NCBI GenBank assembly: GCA_021323395.1
Contig: JAJONL010000004.1
Span: 1-64,000, forward strand
DNA length: 64,000 nt
Source: Nitrospira sp.
GTDB taxonomy: Bacteria > Nitrospirota > Nitrospiria > Nitrospirales > Nitrospiraceae
Direction: 5' to 3'
Part shown: in pieces, positions 51,362 to 61,723 of the stretch
Layout: each line of letters starts with the position of its first letter
How positions within the stretch are numbered: position 1 is the stretch's first letter
The notes under the pieces: model-generated
The model's input: only the letters and a program-made list of their open reading frames with translations
The model's database searches: none
Told to the model about the DNA's origin: nothing
Program-made: the position numbers and the translations under genes

Positions 51362-52747
51362 ATGCATGCACCAACCCTGTTGATCGTAGAAGATGAAGAA
51401 CGGATGCGGCGGCTCTTCGAGCTGGTGTTGAAGCCGGTCGGCTATGAGCTGCTGTTTGCCCGCTCCGGCGCTGAAGCGATCAGCCTCATCCAGGACCATG
51501 GCAGCTTTGACATGATCATCACAGATCTCCAACTGGGCGGTCTGTCCGGAATGGACGTATTGGAAGCAGCGAGAGAGCAGCTGCCGGATGTGCCGGTCCT
51601 CATCGTGACCGGATACGGAACCGTGAAATCGGCCGTCGAGGCCGTGCAGAAGGGCGCCTACGATTACATTTCCAAACCCGTCGACAATGAAGAGCTGAAA
51701 ATCGTCATTGCCCGCGCGCTGCAAGTCCGACAACTTGCTCAAGACAATCGGACCTTGCGAGCAGGGCTGCACGAACAGTTTGGCTTCGACCGGATGATCA
51801 GCGTCTCCAAACAGATGGAACTCGTGAAGCGCCTCGCCCAGGAGGTTGCTCAAACCGACGCCACCGTGCTGGTTACGGGAGAAAGCGGCACCGGCAAGGA
51901 CCTCCTCGCCCGCGCCATTCATCTCGTCAGTCCACGTTCTCAGGGACCCATGGTGGCCCTCAACTGCGCCGGCATTCCCGAACACCTGCTGGAATCCGAA
52001 CTGTTCGGGTATGAAAAAGGGGCCTTCACCGACGCCAAGAAATCCAAGCCGGGACGTTTTCAACTGGCCGATCGCGGCACGCTGTTCCTGGATGAGATCG
52101 GCGAGTTGAGCTTAATGGCCCAAGCCAAACTCCTGCGTGTCCTTGAGGAACATGTGGTGGAACCGCTGGGCGGCGTGCGGAGCCTCAAGGTCGATCTTCG
52201 TGTCATCGCCGCCACGAACCAGGAATTGCCAGACCTGATCAAGACCGGCCGCTTCAGGTTAGATCTCTACTATCGCCTCAACGTGTACCAGCTCCGGATG
52301 CCGGCGCTCCGCGAGCGGCCCGAGGATATCGAACCGATCCTGGTTCAATTCCTGGACCGGGCCCGCAAGGAACGCGGCAGTCGCATCAGGCGGGTCTCCG
52401 GCGAGGCAATGGTCATCATGAAACACTATGCCTGGCCCGGCAATGTGCGTGAACTCCACAATGTGGTGGAATGGTTGACCATCACCTGCAAGCAGGAAGA
52501 GATTGCGCCCGAACATCTACCGCCTTCGCTGAAGGCCCCTGCCCCGCGCCAAGCCGAGACATCTGCGGACATGCCTTCCCTTCTCTCTCTAGGGCTTTCA
52601 GTGGAAGAAGTTGAAAAGGCGATGCTGCAGGAAGCGCTGCGGAAAACCGGCGGCAACGTCTCGGAAGCCAGCCGCCTGCTCAAAATCACACGCAACACGC
52701 TCCGGTATCGAATGGCCAAACATAACCTGTCGCAGCCTCCAGGCTGA
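51362..52747 (+). CDS. NtrC-family sigma-54 response regulator
   Basis: 461 residues: receiver (phospho-Asp55 in MIITDLQLGG, Lys105 in ISKPVD), AAA+ activator domain with Walker A GESGTGKD (173-180) and GSRIRR region, and a Fis-type HTH at the C-terminus (ALRKTGGNVSEASRLLKITRNTLRYRM). It activates sigma-54 promoters. The sigma-54-contact loop reads GAFTDA (220-225) instead of GAFTGA, a variant that also occurs in natural activators. Its TGA overlaps the kinase ATG. Confidence 0.93.
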   Translation: MHAPTLLIVEDEERMRRLFELVLKPVGYELLFARSGAEAISLIQDHGSFDMIITDLQLGGLSGMDVLEAAREQLPDVPVLIVTGYGTVKSAVEAVQKGAYDYISKPVDNEELKIVIARALQVRQLAQDNRTLRAGLHEQFGFDRMISVSKQMELVKRLAQEVAQTDATVLVTGESGTGKDLLARAIHLVSPRSQGPMVALNCAGIPEHLLESELFGYEKGAFTDAKKSKPGRFQLADRGTLFLDEIGELSLMAQAKLLRVLEEHVVEPLGGVRSLKVDLRVIAATNQELPDLIKTGRFRLDLYYRLNVYQLRMPALRERPEDIEPILVQFLDRARKERGSRIRRVSGEAMVIMKHYAWPGNVRELHNVVEWLTITCKQEEIAPEHLPPSLKAPAPRQAETSADMPSLLSLGLSVEEVEKAMLQEALRKTGGNVSEASRLLKITRNTLRYRMAKHNLSQPPG

Positions 52748-54696
52748 TGCGCCCAGCACGACGAGCCGGCGGACTCCAGAGGAAGTTGTTCGTCGCGCTG
52801 CTCATTGTCGGCATCGTGCCCGGTATCGCGGCGCTCTGGACCACCTATTACTTCAGCACCGCCAGCCTCAAACAAGCCATCGGTGAAAGTTTCCAGGAGA
52901 TTGCCCGCTCGACCGCGATTCGCCTGGCCACCGCGGTCGACAATGAAATCGATCGGGCCATCAGGCTGGCGCTTGTTCCCGTGCATGTCAGACAACCGGT
53001 CATGCGGGCGAACGAGCGAGCGAATCGGACCTTCGAGGCGGCTCCGCGCAACCCATCGTCTGCCGCATCGAAGCGAGGAGAGGACACGTCGTCTTCCACT
53101 GCGGCCACCGTCCGTTACCTTAAAGAATGGGCGCGCGAGTCCGGTCATTATGTGCGTGTCACTGTGGCCGACCAACAGGGCGCGGTCGTGGCCTCGACCG
53201 ACCCACTCCTGCCGCCACAGCAGACCGAGCAAGTGTGGTGGCGCGAAGCGATGCGCGCGGTCCCCGGCACATACTACATCAGCAGCCTAGGGCCGGATGC
53301 GCAGGCCAACGACATGACCTTTCAGGTCGCGGTGCCTATTCTCGATGACGTCCAGGGCACTCCCATCGGTGCGGTCGAGCTCGTGATTCGTCGCAACGTC
53401 CTCACTCAAATGATTCTTCCGATTCATATCGGCAATACCGGTCACGGCATGCTCTTGGATACGCAAGGGACTCCCCTGATCTGCCCGGTGCTACCGCCGA
53501 CCGCCCATTTGATTCCGCACACTCTACTGAGCAGGCTGACAATGGATCATCCCCTGTGGCTGGTGGCAGAGGATGACGCGCATGGCGGCCGCGCGGCGAT
53601 CGTGGGCGCCGCCCCGGTCCGGTTCAGCCATCAGTTGACGGCTTCCAGCCTCGGAGGCGACCGGTGGTACGCGTTCATCCGGCAAGCGCCAGAGGAAACT
53701 TACGCTCCGATCTATTCGCTTCTGGTCACGGTGGGGATGATCGGCTTCGGACTCGTCTTCGTCCTCTCTGCCTTCGGTTTTGTCGTCGGCTACCGTTTCG
53801 TCAAACCGCTCAAGACGCTCCAGCGCGAAGCAGAAGGACTTCGCCACACTCTCACGATGCCGCCGCAGGGCGGCAGCCGTCCGCACATCATTCCTACCCT
53901 ACGCGTGGATGCCCGCAAGGGAGATGAGATAGAAGACCTGGCCACAAGTTTTGCAGCCATGCGGGAGGTGTTGGAAGAAAATCTGCGGACGATCCGATCA
54001 CAACAGCATGAGCTAATCAGGCAGGAGAAACTTGCGTCAGTGGGACAACTCCTTGCCGCCCTGGCCCACGACTTGCGCAATCCTCTCGGGGTCATTCGCA
54101 GCAGCGCCCAAGTGGTGCTCGACGGGCCCCCAGAAGAGCGCATCCGTCAGGAGATGGCGCGCTACATCATCGACGAGGTCGACAAACTCTCGCACCGCAT
54201 TCATGACTTCCTTCGTTACGCCAGACAAAAACCGCCTGATCAACAGGTCGTCGCCGCGGAAGAGGTGATGCGAGCGGCACAACGGCAGTGGGAAGCGCAA
54301 GGCGGACATGAACATATTCGTGTGGAGCAGCGCTTCGGTCAGAACCTTCACTCGATTCGGGTCGATCCGGAGCAGGTCAAGGAGGCCTTGATGAATCTCC
54401 TGATCAATGCGCGGGAAGCCATGCTGGAAGGCGGGACATTGACCCTGACGACTCGGAGGGGCACGCAGGGCGATGTGGAACTTGAAGTGACCGACAGCGG
54501 GAGCGGCATCGCCGCTGATCACCTGTCGCGAATCTTCGAGCCCTTCTTCACCACCAAGGAGTACGGGACCGGTCTCGGCCTGACGAACGTCAAACGTCTG
54601 GTCGAAGATAATGGAGGCAGCCTCGCGGTGACGAGCCGATTAGGAGAAGGAACATCGTGCACGCTGCGCTTTCGCCCGGTTACGTGGAGCCCCTGA
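52747..54696 (+). CDS. Cache-HAMP sensor histidine kinase
   Basis: 649 residues, partner of the NtrC-type regulator just upstream (TGATG overlap). N-terminal membrane span (KLFVALLIVGIVPGIAALWTTYYF), large periplasmic Cache-like domain (about 45-330), second membrane span (LVTVGMIGFGLVFVLSAFGFVVGY), HAMP, HisKA with phospho-His441 (ALAHDLRNPLGVI), then HATPase (LMNLLINAREAM, DSGSGI, GTGLGLTNVKRL). The periplasmic domain should bind a small ligand; the identity is unknown. It lies next to the exported protease/FGE operon, which may be under the pair's control. Confidence 0.94.
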   Translation: MRPARRAGGLQRKLFVALLIVGIVPGIAALWTTYYFSTASLKQAIGESFQEIARSTAIRLATAVDNEIDRAIRLALVPVHVRQPVMRANERANRTFEAAPRNPSSAASKRGEDTSSSTAATVRYLKEWARESGHYVRVTVADQQGAVVASTDPLLPPQQTEQVWWREAMRAVPGTYYISSLGPDAQANDMTFQVAVPILDDVQGTPIGAVELVIRRNVLTQMILPIHIGNTGHGMLLDTQGTPLICPVLPPTAHLIPHTLLSRLTMDHPLWLVAEDDAHGGRAAIVGAAPVRFSHQLTASSLGGDRWYAFIRQAPEETYAPIYSLLVTVGMIGFGLVFVLSAFGFVVGYRFVKPLKTLQREAEGLRHTLTMPPQGGSRPHIIPTLRVDARKGDEIEDLATSFAAMREVLEENLRTIRSQQHELIRQEKLASVGQLLAALAHDLRNPLGVIRSSAQVVLDGPPEERIRQEMARYIIDEVDKLSHRIHDFLRYARQKPPDQQVVAAEEVMRAAQRQWEAQGGHEHIRVEQRFGQNLHSIRVDPEQVKEALMNLLINAREAMLEGGTLTLTTRRGTQGDVELEVTDSGSGIAADHLSRIFEPFFTTKEYGTGLGLTNVKRLVEDNGGSLAVTSRLGEGTSCTLRFRPVTWSP

Positions 54697-54763
54697 GCTT
54701 CACCACGCGCGGAATAAAACGTGTCACGCGTGTGAACGCCGCCGTATTCATGAATCATTCCGC

Positions 54764-56380
54764 CTAAGGTACGTCATTCGCGCAGCGGAATCCCAGCGTC
54801 GGTCCCCAGTAAGTCATTTCGTCCCACGCTCGATAGCCGGCCCGCAATTCGATCGGTCGTTCGATCCAACTCCCGCCGCGCAACACGCGAAACGTTCCGC
54901 GCAAGGGGCCTTGGGGGTCGCGGGAAGGTGACGTGCGGTAAAAGTCTTCCGCGTACCAGTCTTTCACCCATTCCGACACGACGCCGATCATGCCCGATAC
55001 ACCATAGGGAGACGTGGCGGTCCATGACGTTCCGGCAGGATCGACGCCATTGGCGGAGTCCTTTCCGTCACTCATCTTCAGTCTGCTTCTGTGAATGACT
55101 TCATCACTGTTGCCCCAGGGGTAGCGCCGCCCATCGATTCCGCGCGCCGCCTTTTCCCATTCGGCTTCGGTGGGCAGTCGTTTCCCGATCCAGTGACAAT
55201 AGCCTCGAGCCTGTGTCCAAGTGACATTGGTCACGGGTTGTTGGCTCTGCTGCGGGTCATCGAAAGCCTCTCGCACCTTCGGTGGCAGACACCCTTGGGC
55301 TTCGACACAGCTCCGGTACTGGCCATTGGTCACCCCCTGTTGATCGATCCAAAAAGAGCTCATATACAGGCGATGGAGGGGGCGGGCATCGGGAAGGCCA
55401 TCTTCCATTCCCATGAGAAACTCACCGCCTGGAATCAGCGCCATTCCCGCGGGAGGCGTCACACCTTGATCGACCAGCCGTTTCAGTTCTTCTCGTTGAC
55501 CGAGTTGGAGTTGAGCATTCACACGGTCGATCTCGTCATCGACGAATACGGGGGACGCCTCCTTCGCACGGGCCGGGAGCGCTGGGGTGTGGGCCACCGA
55601 GGGATGGCCGCTTCGGATGCCGTCCGAGGGGGAATGATGCGCGGCGGGCTGGTTGATGGTCGCTGCCGCCTCCGACATGCGGACCGTCTCGATCCGCACG
55701 GACGTGCGCGTCAATTCCGTCACGAAATCGCCATTTGCCTTCCCCTTTCTGGGCTCCTTTCGCGCCTTGCCCAGAGAAGAGAAATCAAAGTCCGGAATGT
55801 TGGCCAACAAGGGCGTGGCGTAACTGATCGGAACAGCAAACGCCATACCTTCCGGTACAATCCCGGACGGATGGGTAAACTTGGTCGTGAGAATGCCCAC
55901 GACCTCACCCCGCCGGTTAAACAGCGGCCCGCCGCTATTGCCGGGGTTCACCGCTGCATCCACCTGAAACACCCGCTGCACGCCTTTGGCGCGCACCGCG
56001 GACACATGCCCGCGGGTGACGGTGATTTCGCGTAACCCGAATTGAAATCCGACGGCAATGACCTCTTGATCCAGTTTCACGGCGCCGGCGTACCCGAGCG
56101 GCGCCTCGGAAAGACCAACCGTTTCTACCTTTAACAAAGCAAGGTCATGTTCGGCATCGACACTGACCACCACGGCCGGCACCCTGAATTCTCCGGATGT
56201 CACGATCGTGATACGTTTGGCGTTCGCCACCACATGGTGAGCCGTCAGGAGGTATCCATCGTGATGGACGATCACGCCGCTGCCGGCGGGCCTTTCTACC
56301 GGCACCGGCTGGCGTTCATCCGCCTGTGCTATCGGGACAGTCGCGAACCATAGGGCCAGCAAGACTCGAGAAATTTTCAT
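54764..56380 (-). CDS. Trypsin-like protease fused to a formylglycine-generating-type domain
   Basis: 538 residues with signal peptide (MKISRVLLALWFATVPIAQA). The N-terminal S1C (HtrA-like) protease has the triad His49 (TAHHVV), Asp79 (AEHDLALLK) and Ser149 (NPGNSGGPLF). A linker of about 130 residues leads to a FGE-sulfatase/SUMF1-type domain (315-538; GMALIPGGEFLMGMEDG, PVTNVTWTQARGYCHWIGKRLPTEAEWEKAARG, FRVLRGGSWIERPIELRAGYR). No PDZ domain. The FGE family oxidises Cys to formylglycine; here copper/Cys active residues need checking. It overlaps the DUF3365 gene by ATGA. Confidence 0.88.
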   Translation of the reverse strand: MKISRVLLALWFATVPIAQADERQPVPVERPAGSGVIVHHDGYLLTAHHVVANAKRITIVTSGEFRVPAVVVSVDAEHDLALLKVETVGLSEAPLGYAGAVKLDQEVIAVGFQFGLREITVTRGHVSAVRAKGVQRVFQVDAAVNPGNSGGPLFNRRGEVVGILTTKFTHPSGIVPEGMAFAVPISYATPLLANIPDFDFSSLGKARKEPRKGKANGDFVTELTRTSVRIETVRMSEAAATINQPAAHHSPSDGIRSGHPSVAHTPALPARAKEASPVFVDDEIDRVNAQLQLGQREELKRLVDQGVTPPAGMALIPGGEFLMGMEDGLPDARPLHRLYMSSFWIDQQGVTNGQYRSCVEAQGCLPPKVREAFDDPQQSQQPVTNVTWTQARGYCHWIGKRLPTEAEWEKAARGIDGRRYPWGNSDEVIHRSRLKMSDGKDSANGVDPAGTSWTATSPYGVSGMIGVVSEWVKDWYAEDFYRTSPSRDPQGPLRGTFRVLRGGSWIERPIELRAGYRAWDEMTYWGPTLGFRCANDVP

Positions 56381-57159
56381 TTCGTGACCGGCAGCAGCAC
56401 GCTAATGGCCCCCGCGCTTTGCCCCAACACGAGGCCTTCCCGCGGATAACCTGTTCGATCGAGACTCCCCTTAGGGCCGCCATGGCAATCAAGACAGTGC
56501 CTCGTCGCATACAGCGGAAACATGAGACGCAAGGCGGAACTGTTGGAGGCCATTTCACTGATGACCTTTTCACGGGGGTAGGCGGAATCGGCAAAGGCTT
56601 CCAGCGCGGTCTGTTCGTAGAGATCCGGCCGGTTGGCTGGGTTCCGTGGCGTCAAGGCCGTTTGTTTCAATCGCACGCCGGTTTTGGCGGTAAACCGCGT
56701 CGCAACACGGGAACCGAAGACGGCCGGAATAAATCCTTTAAAGCCGGTCCCTTGACGGTTCACCTCTCTTTGAGATTCCTCAATCACCCCCTTACTCACA
56801 CCGACGAGCTCTTTGAGAAGACGCTTACTACGCTGCGGCAGCGTGATGGTCTCGATGTCTTGCAAATCGATGCCGGCGCGACCTCGAAACATGTCCAGCA
56901 GTTGTCGTTCGAAGACTTCCGGGGTGAAACCCTTCTCGGCCCTCGATGGATCGTCCAGCAAGGTTTGGTTGTCATTGACGACCGCGCGGCCTGAGTCGAG
57001 CAAAATGGCCAGCAGACGGGCTGTCTGCTCGGTTTCGAGGATGGTATGGAAAGGCATTGCGGAATGTTCGGAGGATTCAGCGCTCAAGGCGGGAACCGCA
57101 CAGACAAGCCAGCCTCCGACCGTCAGACAGGCCATCATCCGCGGGAGATGACGTCGCAT
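56377..57159 (-). CDS. DUF3365 c-type haem exported protein
   Basis: 260 residues, signal peptide (CLTVGGWLVCAVPALSA) and DUF3365 domain with one c-type haem site CLDCH (222-226). The mature protein contains FTPEVFERQLLDMFRG, RVATRFTAKTGVRLKQTALTPRNPANRPD and YPREGLVLGQSAGAISVLLP. It is the second DUF3365 protein of this window. Its stop overlaps the protease-FGE start, so the two are made together; it may act as a redox or gas sensor for that protein. Confidence 0.87.
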   Translation of the reverse strand: MRRHLPRMMACLTVGGWLVCAVPALSAESSEHSAMPFHTILETEQTARLLAILLDSGRAVVNDNQTLLDDPSRAEKGFTPEVFERQLLDMFRGRAGIDLQDIETITLPQRSKRLLKELVGVSKGVIEESQREVNRQGTGFKGFIPAVFGSRVATRFTAKTGVRLKQTALTPRNPANRPDLYEQTALEAFADSAYPREKVISEMASNSSALRLMFPLYATRHCLDCHGGPKGSLDRTGYPREGLVLGQSAGAISVLLPVTK

Positions 57160-57298: not shown

Positions 57299-57811
57299 TC
57301 ACCGATTCTGGTGAATGTCGATCATCACATTATCCGCATCCAACTCGATTGTCACCGGCATCCCTTCCTGAAACACCGACAGCTTGCTTCCGGCCAGCGA
57401 ATCGACTTCATAGCGCTCGAATCCCTCCGGCGTCGAGATCTGGATCTCGCCCCAAAAGGGATCTGCGTATTGAATCCGACCGGCGAGCACCTTGTGATTC
57501 TCGAACAATACGCCGCCCGGTCTCGACGCATCGAGCAATACATTTCCTGAATCGATCAGTAGCCACACCTCATCACCGATTCGGGCATCATGCAGGCCAA
57601 CGCGGTCCGCCTTGTTTGGACTGATCGTCCGCAATTGCATCCCATTGGGCAATTTGACAAACAACAGCCCACTTTCAATCTTGGCAATCTGACCGCTCAA
57701 TGCCACATGCGCTCCGAGCGTAAGACCATCCGAAGGATCTTCTGCCCAGCTCAACCCCATGGGGCAGAACAATCCTATCGCACCGACGACAATGCATGTT
57801 TTCCACCTCAT
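57299..57811 (-). CDS. Exported hypothetical protein
   Basis: 170 residues. Signal peptide (CIVVGAIGLFCPMGLSWA), then a beta-rich domain (ALSGQIAKIESGLLFVKLPNG; KADRVGLHDARIGDEVWLLI; SVFQEGMPVTIEL). GGAGA lies at good distance before ATG 57811. Fold may be an OB or SH3-like barrel; no family recognised. It follows two more small exported protein genes in the same direction. Confidence 0.75.
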   Translation of the reverse strand: MRWKTCIVVGAIGLFCPMGLSWAEDPSDGLTLGAHVALSGQIAKIESGLLFVKLPNGMQLRTISPNKADRVGLHDARIGDEVWLLIDSGNVLLDASRPGGVLFENHKVLAGRIQYADPFWGEIQISTPEGFERYEVDSLAGSKLSVFQEGMPVTIELDADNVMIDIHQNR

Positions 57812-57851: not shown

Positions 57852-58247
57852 TCAGTAGCCTCCTTCGCTGCTTGCCCCTGGGACCGGTGGAACCGTGATG
57901 CCGTATTCCTGAATCGGCGTCACCATCACGGCGAAGTTGAACAATTCGTCGGCGGCGACATCATGAATCCCTTGATCGCGGGCCCGAAGCATCTTGAACC
58001 ACTTCCCCATTTCGGTTTTGACCATTTTCGTATCACCGCGGCCCACCGCCTCTTTCACCGTCTGCAGGCGCTGGCTATAGGGCTCCCAATTCGAACCGGG
58101 ATAGCTGGTCTTGTAGAAATTAAGTGAGGTATTGATGTCGTCGATCCATGATTGTTGCGCAAACGCGGTCCCTAGGAGCAGGCTCGAACCGATGCATAAC
58201 CCGAAACACAACGCGCGGAAGCCCTGTCCTCTCTTCGGAGTATTCAT
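57852..58247 (-). CDS. Exported small helical protein
   Basis: 131 residues with signal peptide (ALCFGLCIGSSLLLGTAFA), then QSWIDDINTSLNFYKTSYPG and KEAVGRGDTKMVKTEMGKWFKML. Mostly helical. GGGAGG precedes ATG 58247. Family not recognised; the build recalls small periplasmic binding or stress proteins. Co-oriented with the genes on either side. Confidence 0.7.
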   Translation of the reverse strand: MNTPKRGQGFRALCFGLCIGSSLLLGTAFAQQSWIDDINTSLNFYKTSYPGSNWEPYSQRLQTVKEAVGRGDTKMVKTEMGKWFKMLRARDQGIHDVAADELFNFAVMVTPIQEYGITVPPVPGASSEGGY

Positions 58248-58291
58248 GGTGTGCCTCCCTCTCCTCAGGTGAAATGATCCCGACAGATGGT

Positions 58292-58621
58292 TCAAAAGGA
58301 GACCGCTGACTTACTATCCGATTCTCGAGCATTTTCCGCATCGGTTGCGTCCGGCGTCTTCAGCATGGTCGTGTCCATGTCGCCGGATGGACCGGTTTCC
58401 GGCATGACCATCTGACGATCAAATCCCCTGTCCAACTCGCCCAGCGCCGGCTCGTTAGATGTCACCCCTCCCTCCGGGATCGCCTCCTTCTGCGGCGCGG
58501 AAGGGCCGATCATCTGATCCGAGTGTATGACTTGCCCCTGCACCACAGCGGTGACACACAATCCCAGTGCCAACCCAGTCGCGAAAACCAGCATAGCCTT
58601 TTCCCCCCGGTTGATGGTCAT
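58292..58621 (-). CDS. Small exported or membrane-anchored protein
   Basis: 109 residues: one N-terminal hydrophobic segment (AMLVFATGLALGLCVTAVVQG) then a polar, probably disordered tail (IPEGGVTSNEPALGELD ... DATDAENARESDSKSAVSF). GGAGGAGG lies just before ATG 58621. It is 44 bases upstream of the helical exported protein gene and likely in its operon. No family recognised. Confidence 0.65.
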   Translation of the reverse strand: MTINRGEKAMLVFATGLALGLCVTAVVQGQVIHSDQMIGPSAPQKEAIPEGGVTSNEPALGELDRGFDRQMVMPETGPSGDMDTTMLKTPDATDAENARESDSKSAVSF

Positions 58622-58769
58622 GATGCCTCCTCCTCCCATGACAAATGGACCTATCGCAGCAGTATCGAACGTCGCACCGCACACTGTACTGGAAGGGATT
58701 GGTACAGGCCCATTGCCTGGAGGATGGATTTTGTCTCCACCCTCCGAGTGAGAGAAGACGCCTGTGGAA

Positions 58770-59411
58770 TTAGCTGTCGCCCAGGTACGTAAGGACGGCT
58801 TCTACCCGGCCGCTCACTTTCAACTTTTGATAGATGTGATGCAGATGGGTTTTCACCGTATCGAGGGACACGCACAGCTGATCAGCGATGTCTTTGTTGC
58901 TCCCTCCGGCCGCCGCGCAGGCCAGGATTTCCCGTTCCCGATCGGTCAGCAGGGCCAGCCCATGGACCTCAGGCTCCGTTTTATTCACCAGGGCCACCGC
59001 CTTCCGGGCAAAACCATCCGGCATGAACGCCGACCGGACTGGCTCCCCCTCGAACGTGGCGCGAATGATTCGCAAGAACTCCTGGTGGTCCGCGTCTTTC
59101 AAGATGTATCCGCAGGCTCCCGCCCGCACGGCCGCCACGATGCGAGCGTCGTCATCATGGACCGAGAGCATCAATACCTTGCTCGCCGGCGCGCAGCTTC
59201 GGATCAAGCGGGTGGCGGTGATGCCATCCAGTCGGGGCATGTCCACATCCATCAGCACGATACTGGGTTTTCGTTCCACGGCAAGGTCGAAGGCTTGCCG
59301 GCCGTCCATGGCCTCTCCGACCACGACGAGATCCCGCTCGTGTTCCAGCAACATGCGCAGGCTCTGCCGGAACAATCGTTGGTCTTCGGCAATTAGGATG
59401 GTGATGGGCAT
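58770..59411 (-). CDS. NarL/LuxR-family response regulator
   Basis: 213 residues. Receiver domain with LIAEDQRLF, predicted phospho-Asp in SIVLMDVDMPRLDG and Lys in GYILKDADH; C-terminal LuxR HTH (LLTDREREILACAAAGGSNKDIADQLCVSLDTVKTHLHHIYQKL). It overlaps the end of the kinase gene by 19 bases, so they act as a pair. Target genes are unknown; the small exported protein genes downstream are candidates by position. Confidence 0.93.
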   Translation of the reverse strand: MPITILIAEDQRLFRQSLRMLLEHERDLVVVGEAMDGRQAFDLAVERKPSIVLMDVDMPRLDGITATRLIRSCAPASKVLMLSVHDDDARIVAAVRAGACGYILKDADHQEFLRIIRATFEGEPVRSAFMPDGFARKAVALVNKTEPEVHGLALLTDREREILACAAAGGSNKDIADQLCVSLDTVKTHLHHIYQKLKVSGRVEAVLTYLGDS

Positions 59412-61699
59412 AGCCGCTCCCGCCTCACCGGCAACGTCACCGTAAATTTCGCGCCACCCTCGGGACGATTCGCCGCTGCGATCTGTCCGCCGTGAGCTTC
59501 GACTACCAGGTGACAGAAGTGCAACCCGAGGCCACGACCGATCCTATAGTCCTGCCCGTCCTTCTTCCTAAAAAACATTTCAAACAGATGCGGCAAGTCA
59601 TCCGGCGCAATCCCAGGCCCTTCGTCTTCGATGTGAATCGTCACCATGGGACAGTGAGCCGGTTGCATCTGATCTTCTGTCGACAACGACTCGTCGCCCT
59701 CGACCTGCACCGCGATCATGATCGTACCCTGTGGCGGCGAGTACTTCAGCGCGTTGTGGATCAGATTGATCAGCACCCGTTGTAGTCGGCGCCCATCTCC
59801 CATGATCCACAGATCATCGGCCTGCACCTGAAGATGGAACTGCACCTCCTGCGCCTCGGCCTCCGAGCGGAAGAGCCGCAGCACTTCCTTAAGCAGCAGG
59901 CTCGGTGAGACTGGCGACGTGCTGAGCGGAAGACCCGAATAACTTTCCTGATAGACATCCAGCATGTCATTGATCATGCCCAGCAGCAGGTCGGTGGTGA
60001 AACGCAGATCCGCAAGACAGCGACGCGGTTGGGCCTGTTCCATCTCCGGGCAGCGGCCCAGCCATTCCAGCGTCTTCTTGATCCCGGCCAGCGGATTGCG
60101 GATATCGTGGGCAAACATCGAAGCGAATTGACTCAACGACGCCAATCGCTCGGACCGGAGCAATTGGCGTTCGAGTTCCTTTTGCTCGGTCAGATCGCTG
60201 AGTTGCATGATGACCGATTCCACGCGTCCGGACTTCATGACCGGCACAAAATCAATGTCCATCGTCAGATCGCCGGCGGCCGGCGTAGGGACGCGCATAA
60301 GCCCAACCGGCACATCCGCGCCGCTCCGCAGCGCCAGCTGCAGCCGCTCCAACAGGCGCGGCCGCTCGGAGTCAGCCACGAGGCCGGACACCGGTTGATG
60401 GACGATGGTAGTTGCCGGCCGGCCCAGCATACTCTCACCTCGTCGATTGACGGCTTGGATGACGCCGGCGGGATCAATCAGAATTTTGCTATCGACCGAG
60501 TGATTCCAAAGCAGACGATAATGTTCCTCGGAGGTAGCCAGAGCGAGGTTCGCCTGCTCCAGGCGGTGGACATACTGAGCGTTGGCTTGCGAGGCCTGCT
60601 CCAGTCGTTGAGAGAGGTCATCGAAACTGGAAGCGAGAGCATCGATCTCGACAATCCCGCAGGGTTGTGCCGGCGCAAGGGCGACAGTGGGCGTGGAAGA
60701 CCTAGCGCTGCCGAGCCGATCGATGCGCTGAATCAGCGTGCCCAGAGGACGCACGATTCGGCGCGCGAGTCGCCAACGCAGCCACACGATAAATCCAATC
60801 GCTCCCACCCAGAATGCCGCAAGTTTCCCGACCAGAGCTAACAACGGCTCAAACGTCTCCCCCGGATCCTGCTGCACCAGGATAGACCAGGTGCCCGCCT
60901 GAATGACCGGCGGGGGGAGAACCACCGGAGCGACACCCACGATGCCTTTCTTGCCGCCATGCGTGTCGAGCGCAGGCTGAACCCATCGTGCGGAACGATC
61001 CTTTTCGGACTGCGCCGTGATGGCAGTGAACGGGGTATGCCGGCTTGGAGGCAACAGGGAACAGGCGAGCACCAACCCATCGTCGGCCACCAGCATCATG
61101 TGACCCGTTCGGCCGATGCGACTTTCGAGAATCGAGGCTAAGATTCGATCCGTCCCGATGATCACTTTCAACACACCTCGCACCGGTTCATTCGTTTCCC
61201 GTACCGGTACCGCCACCTCCCAATAACCGTGCCCCTCCTGATCGACCGTGAACGGTCCCGCCCAGGGACGACCCTCCCGGAAAACTATAGGCCACCAAGG
61301 TTGCTGCACATAGAAAGTTCGCGCGGAGTCACTCCTTCGACCTCCGACCAGTTGCCCATCCGCCCGCACGATAGCCAGAGACTGAAAATAGCGACGCTGC
61401 TCCTCACGCCATCGCTCGAGATGCACCGAGGCCGGCCCAACCGGGGCCGTTTCGCCCACGGACGCACGAATGTCCGGAAGGGCGCTGAGTCGTTGCGTCC
61501 ATTCGATTTCCTTGGCGAGCAACAACGCGGCTTTATCCGCACTTTGACGGGCTATTTCTTGGAAGGTGATACCGACGGTCGTTTGGAGAGACTGTTTGGC
61601 ATGCCAGTAGGCATAGGCGAGGCCCACTGTGCCCGAGAGAACCCCGACCGAGAGCACAGACAGGGTGATCAATCTCTGGAGGCTGACCCGCGGATTCAT
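59393..61699 (-). CDS. Cache/HAMP/PAS sensor histidine kinase
   Basis: 768 residues from ATG 61699 (MNPRVSLQRLITL), the ORF-track start being 61723. Membrane spans near residues 10-30 and around 300 (LVGKLAAFWVGAIGFIVWL) frame a periplasmic dCache domain. Then HAMP, a coiled coil, a PAS domain (EEHYRLLWNHSVDSKILIDPAGVIQAVNRRGESMLG), HisKA with phospho-His531 (FAHDIRNPLAGIKK) and HATPase (LINLIHNALKYSPPQGTI, IEDEGPGIA, GRGLGLHFCHLVVEAHGG). Domain build suggests it senses an extracellular ligand plus an internal signal, and passes phosphate to the NarL-type regulator. Confidence 0.94.
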   Translation of the reverse strand: MNPRVSLQRLITLSVLSVGVLSGTVGLAYAYWHAKQSLQTTVGITFQEIARQSADKAALLLAKEIEWTQRLSALPDIRASVGETAPVGPASVHLERWREEQRRYFQSLAIVRADGQLVGGRRSDSARTFYVQQPWWPIVFREGRPWAGPFTVDQEGHGYWEVAVPVRETNEPVRGVLKVIIGTDRILASILESRIGRTGHMMLVADDGLVLACSLLPPSRHTPFTAITAQSEKDRSARWVQPALDTHGGKKGIVGVAPVVLPPPVIQAGTWSILVQQDPGETFEPLLALVGKLAAFWVGAIGFIVWLRWRLARRIVRPLGTLIQRIDRLGSARSSTPTVALAPAQPCGIVEIDALASSFDDLSQRLEQASQANAQYVHRLEQANLALATSEEHYRLLWNHSVDSKILIDPAGVIQAVNRRGESMLGRPATTIVHQPVSGLVADSERPRLLERLQLALRSGADVPVGLMRVPTPAAGDLTMDIDFVPVMKSGRVESVIMQLSDLTEQKELERQLLRSERLASLSQFASMFAHDIRNPLAGIKKTLEWLGRCPEMEQAQPRRCLADLRFTTDLLLGMINDMLDVYQESYSGLPLSTSPVSPSLLLKEVLRLFRSEAEAQEVQFHLQVQADDLWIMGDGRRLQRVLINLIHNALKYSPPQGTIMIAVQVEGDESLSTEDQMQPAHCPMVTIHIEDEGPGIAPDDLPHLFEMFFRKKDGQDYRIGRGLGLHFCHLVVEAHGGQIAAANRPEGGAKFTVTLPVRRERLCPSPS

Positions 61700-61723
61700 A
61701 ACGGCAGGCCAATAGCCAAACAT

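Follow-up and report, generated by a model that had tools for sequence, protein, structure and literature searches.

A conserved Nitrospira gene cassette linking an HtrA-like protease/FGE-like fusion to a c-type haem protein

The stretch of Nitrospira DNA analysed here (64,000 nucleotides, hereafter the window) contains a cassette, one conserved gene string encoding four exported proteins, among them an HtrA-like protease fused to a formylglycine-generating enzyme (FGE)-like domain and a c-type haem protein; in the focal genus, the cassette also comprises a dCache histidine kinase and a NarL-type response regulator. All four proteins, the fusion included, carry putative export signals, which were read by eye from the N-termini. 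From this arrangement we infer the function of a haem-sensing, two-component-regulated module of periplasmic proteolysis, a reading to which we give a probability of about 0.45. The kinase/regulator pair would turn on the gene string, and the haem protein would respond to redox state or to a small ligand, for example NO, and would gate or direct the fusion's proteolysis by making contact with it. The FGE-like domain would recruit either the substrate or the haem partner. Under nitrosative or oxidative conditions, envelope proteins, either damaged ones or specific ones, would in this way be removed or processed. The layout of the fusion and its haem partner is as follows:

54764..56380, minus strand: HtrA-like protease/FGE-like fusion protein, 538 aa, predicted exported (Pfam Trypsin_2 and FGE-sulfatase; 28 orthologues aligned)
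55892..56284, minus strand: trypsin-like (HtrA-type) protease domain, residues 33-163, triad H49, D79, S149 (Pfam, HtrA/Do-family models, alignment)
55451..55789, minus strand: low-conservation linker, residues 198-310, where PDZ domains would sit (no domain match; variable in the alignment)
54779..55450, minus strand: FGE-sulfatase-fold domain, residues 311-534, lacking the catalytic Cys pair, with the family-specific loop GWDEMTYWGPTLGFR (Pfam, PDB comparison, orthologue alignment)
56377..57159, minus strand: stand-alone sCache_heme (DUF3365/Tll0287) c-type haem protein, 260 aa, predicted exported (Pfam; best Foldseek match Tll0287, 5b82)
56482..56496, minus strand: haem c attachment motif CLDCH, residues 222-226 (C-L-x-C-H invariant in 16 orthologues)

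An initial annotation, made from the sequence alone, had described an exported trypsin-like protease with a complete catalytic triad, joined to an FGE-type domain and devoid of a PDZ domain, and this description stands. Behind a signal peptide ending in ..AQA, Pfam assigns residues 33-163 to Trypsin_2 (E 3e-33) and residues 311-534 to FGE-sulfatase (PF03781, E 1e-52, above the cut-off); it finds no PDZ domain, residues 198-310 being free of any domain up to the start of the FGE part. H49, D79 and S149 are invariant in 28 of 28 aligned orthologues that are 59-83% identical, which excludes an assembly artefact or chance as the source of the fusion and of its pairing with the haem protein. Models of the HtrA/Do family match at residues 26-195 only, the best Do-family score being 147 against a cut-off of 416, and the MamE model reaches 108 bits (cut-off 800) on the protease part only. 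Like DegP, DegQ and DegS, the fusion presents an exported trypsin-type domain with the triad and a GNSGG motif; unlike them, it has no PDZ domain, a linker of about 110 residues and an FGE-like C-terminal domain. The AlphaFold2 (AF2) model of the fusion (pLDDT 38) is too low in confidence for a reading of fold or pocket.

The fusion shares the FGE-sulfatase fold with FGE/SUMF1 and its non-catalytic kin (SUMF2, GldK/PorK and the variable proteins of diversity-generating retroelements, DGR), and PDB matches of the FGE part comprise FGE, SUMF2, EgtB, PorK and a Treponema variable protein. It departs from FGE/SUMF1 at the active site. In a comparison with the S. coelicolor and human enzymes, the copper-Cys motif SYLCHDSYCNR of S. 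coelicolor FGE becomes SW.ERP-.ELR, and in 28 of 28 orthologues the first catalytic Cys position is occupied by Glu, Gln, Asp or others, with the second deleted. A likely structural pair (C395, C533) is kept and another pair (C358, C364) is invariant among the fusion orthologues. The fetched loci gave 86 distinct FGE-type sequences, and in a pattern test not one of them had a Cys pair in the copper-site segment, so that its absence is ordinary for bacterial FGE-like domains. What sets the fusion family apart from the rest of the 86 is a near-invariant loop, W-D-x-M-x-Y-W-G-P (here WDEMTYWGP), located just N-terminal of GFRC.

Judged by these residues, the FGE part is no enzyme that generates formylglycine, and the active FGE or maturation function first proposed for it is not supported, the Cu/Cys site being missing in every orthologue. 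Since that site is lost throughout, a binding role is the economical reading, and by analogy with non-catalytic FGE-fold proteins the domain is most likely a binding module. The same evidence bears on a maturation or assembly factor, for instance for periplasmic cytochromes or nitrite oxidoreductase, whose protease would process a precursor that the FGE-like part modifies or holds. We consider such a factor very unlikely: sequence matches to FGE-superfamily enzymes (FGE, EgtB, PvdO) and to assembly parts (GldK/PorK) speak for it, and the absence of the Cu/Cys site in all orthologues speaks against it.

FGE/SUMF1-type domains form a large, expanded paralogous family in the source genome, with 19 matches at different places, several of them close together (e.g. 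on contigs C26, C56 and C118); the paralogues that were examined have no catalytic Cys pair. Among 131 FGE-containing ORFs of the fetched loci, a sample biased towards close FGE relatives, HtrA fusions are confined to the cassette genes.

The proposal that the fusion is coupled to a DUF3365 c-type haem partner was borne out. The TGA stop of the haem gene overlaps the ATG of the fusion by 4 bp (ATGA), the product matches Tll0287-like/DUF3365 (PF11845) with an E-value of 9e-21 in Pfam, and C222-L-x-C225-H226 is found in 16 of 16 orthologues; the protein encoded here has one CXXCH. An AF2 model (pLDDT 74) has Tll0287 (5b82) as its best PDB match, with a Foldseek probability of 1.00, an E-value of 4e-3 and a modest TM-score; on this model, the protein has a Cache fold. 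In the PDB, a profile of the protein matched only Tll0287, and phmmer returned no match. The likeness to Tll0287 and other sCache_heme proteins thus extends to the CXXCH motif, the Cache fold match and the stand-alone architecture (PMC12889525), while the protein differs by a longer N-terminal helical part, a gene fixed beside a protease gene and the residue aligned with the distal Cys: in a hand-extended profile alignment, the distal Cys68 of Tll0287 (FKAVC, precursor numbering) aligns with an invariant Ala146. Orthologues with a clear start have no Cys outside CXXCH beyond the signal peptide. As the distal Cys is also absent at that place in Nitrospira haem-protein paralogues without a protease neighbour, its absence is a trait not specific to the cassette.

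A haem domain lacking the distal Cys of Tll0287 makes sensing of redox state or of a small ligand (NO) plausible. A 2026 preprint on this family (PMC12889525) describes tight NO binding by a member that lacks the axial Cys, and redox-protein behaviour for a stand-alone member with Cys ligation; NO still dissociated quickly from a C59A mutant of this second protein, so that a missing Cys alone is no proof of NO sensing. The haem protein of the cassette is a stand-alone exported protein, without the TM/HAMP or other signalling-module fusion of the NO-sensing Cluster 2 defined in that study, and the redox roles given there to stand-alone sCache_heme proteins speak against NO sensing here. Elsewhere in Nitrospira, a 656-residue frame (L182:5926-7896; G004 C1:2960000-2975000) begins with an ExeA/TniB-like AAA domain and ends with a Tll0287/DUF3365 haem domain, the two being separated by a probable membrane segment. 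It would be an ATPase bearing a periplasmic haem sensor, and further Nitrospira genomes have frames of about this length.

The remaining cassette genes and the flanking regulators are:

57299..57811, minus strand: 170-aa predicted exported protein without known domain, co-inherited cassette part (strong orthologues in fusion-bearing genomes; conserved order)
57852..58295, minus strand: 147-aa predicted exported protein without known domain, cassette part (co-occurrence, conserved order)
58292..58684, minus strand: 130-aa protein, weakly conserved, ATGA overlap with the next gene, cassette member in the genus (locus comparison)
58770..59411, minus strand: LuxR/NarL-type response regulator whose presence or absence tracks the cassette within the genus (domain match, genome and locus comparison)
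59393..61723, minus strand: dCache-HAMP-PAS histidine kinase, co-directional with the cassette and gone from the locus where the cassette is gone (domain match, locus comparison)
51362..52747, plus strand: NtrC-type sigma-54 activator, convergent, judged a non-member (kept at the locus in five cassette-less genomes)
52747..54696, plus strand: dCache histidine kinase paired with the NtrC-type activator and likewise convergent, judged a non-member (kept at the locus in five cassette-less genomes)

Co-inheritance was assessed in 101 Nitrospirales relatives, and the spread of the fusion also in a 396-genome sample of the phylum, the source genome itself being in 234 contigs. The fusion, the haem gene and the genes at 57299-57811 and 57852-58295 co-occur in the same Nitrospirales genomes (about 35 of 101). 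Full-length fusions, such as that of Nitrospira sp. UBC2 (CP092081.1), are present in about a third of these relatives and, across the phylum sample, are limited to two Nitrospirales families. Essentially every fusion gene whose contig extends far enough has the haem gene immediately upstream. Strong orthologues of the 170-aa protein were found in exactly the 34 genomes that have the fusion and in one more (G010), whose contig breaks off within the haem gene and so does not reach the fusion; those of the 147-aa protein show the same genome pattern. At almost every locus examined, both small genes lie ahead of the haem gene; the order is changed in L089 and L092. The initial annotation did not include these two small exported proteins, although their linkage is as tight as that of the haem gene. 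For the 170-aa protein no Pfam family scores above the cut-off, the only match being a sub-threshold one to TOBE; distant Nitrospira homologues carry its domain twice in tandem.

This distribution also weighs against the maturation reading, since about two thirds of the sampled Nitrospirales, including six congeners, do without the cassette; if those genomes belong to nitrifiers, the cassette is not needed for core nitrite oxidation.

A further explanation, which we regard as possible though doubtful, is a general periplasmic quality-control protease in which the FGE-like domain takes the place of PDZ in binding misfolded proteins, the haem protein being a separate electron carrier or NO scavenger encoded in a shared stress-induced operon. 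The HtrA family provides a precedent, stand-alone sCache_heme proteins have been assigned redox roles (PMC12889525), and gene linkage alone does not imply contact. Against this, the linkage between haem gene and fusion persists where the neighbouring two-component system has been lost, and the two small exported proteins co-vary as well, suggesting one functional unit over a stress regulon.

Two regulatory pairs adjoin the cassette. The NtrC/kinase pair with which the initial annotation had associated the fusion is indeed present, but it is encoded convergently, on the other strand. The whole block is absent from six genomes of the genus; the locus was fetched for five of these, and there the flanking genes remain, in the order mutS2 - CHASE2 cyclase - SH3 - M48 - kinase/NtrC. 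Being kept in cassette-less genomes, the NtrC/kinase pair is a stable neighbour and not a member, and it was rejected as the cassette regulator. A strict scan for sigma-54 promoters, which returned no site of at least 10/12 in the window or in relatives, lends no support to NtrC control either. The NarL-type regulator at 58770-59411 is found in 23 genomes of the genus with the cassette and is absent from the 6 without it. Vanishing with the cassette while the NtrC/kinase pair stays, the kinase/NarL-type pair (58770-61723) is the better candidate, and we infer that it switches on the cassette string. Its linkage to the cassette breaks in some other genera (L087, L088, L091), which leaves the four exported proteins as the minimal unit. 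The 147-aa protein has a second, diverged copy directly after the NarL-type regulator in L086 and in L098, a placement that suggests this protein family as the regulator's target.

The joint presence or absence of kinase/regulator and cassette within the genus would also fit if the exported proteins were accessories of signalling, with the haem Cache protein as a ligand or redox sensor feeding the dCache kinase (59393-61723) and the protease cleaving a signalling partner in the manner of DegS/RseP. We find this quite unlikely, as several genera have the cassette with no such kinase nearby and no anti-sigma factor was seen among the neighbours.

In most congeners, genes for a CHASE2-adenylate cyclase, an SH3-domain protein and an M48 metalloprotease lie between the fusion and the convergent kinase (L080:9534-13097). 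The source genome has cleanly lost this trio, the gap there being 54697-54763; at the threshold used, no orthologue of the CHASE2 cyclase was found in it, and its best M48 match is 32% identical. Kept in cassette-less genomes and missing in the source genome, the trio was rejected as part of the operon.

Trypsin and FGE folds also meet, on separate or fused proteins, in VMAP/STAND systems and DGR targets (PMC10907252, PMC8195603), where trypsin-type effectors and FGE (C-lectin) sensors both have a place. On that ground, and given that the protease domain weakly matches PADLOC defence models with a trypsin component, a conflict/defence or diversity-generating element was considered; we judge it highly improbable. 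Those systems are NTPase-centred, whereas the cassette is haem-linked, has no NTPase and has all four core parts predicted to be exported; no NTPase, EAD or reverse transcriptase gene occurs among the conserved neighbours, and PADLOC gave no match for the haem or small proteins. Nor is the C-terminus of the FGE part hypervariable: across the 28 orthologues it is among the most conserved regions of the fusion.

The closest precedent for HtrA combined with haem c is MamE, a magnetosome HtrA protease functionally coupled to haem c, in which the haem sites have a limited role next to the protease (PMC3971196). Both systems tie an HtrA/trypsin protease to c-type haem in an extracytoplasmic compartment. 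MamE carries its haem in cis, on magnetochrome domains, and has PDZ domains, whereas the cassette has haem in trans, on a Cache-fold protein, and an FGE-like domain without PDZ. That the cassette encodes a protease gated by haem in trans, with the c-haem Cache protein sensing NO or redox state in the periplasm of a nitrite oxidiser and switching the HtrA-FGE protease on or off, the FGE fold having evolved into the recognition domain, seems to us rather unlikely in this precise form; if true, it would be a case of gas- or redox-controlled periplasmic proteolysis outside magnetosomes.

The view that no system of this make-up had been described agrees with our searches of the literature and of libraries; in the literature searched, including that on Nitrospira with FGE/SUMF1 or DUF3365, we found no published Nitrospira HtrA-FGE protein or DUF3365-protease pair. 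The parts of the cassette all belong to known families; what is new, as far as the literature searched goes, is that they are combined and inherited together. Periplasmic proteolysis is switched by misfolded proteins, and the habitat of Nitrospira brings nitrite, NO and oxygen. If our preferred reading is true, a haem c sensor encoded next door would represent a different input to periplasmic proteolysis, and such a system would bear on the protection of exposed envelope enzymes in nitrite oxidisers. Because the block as a whole is naturally present in some members of one genus and absent from others, the idea can be tested by strain comparison.
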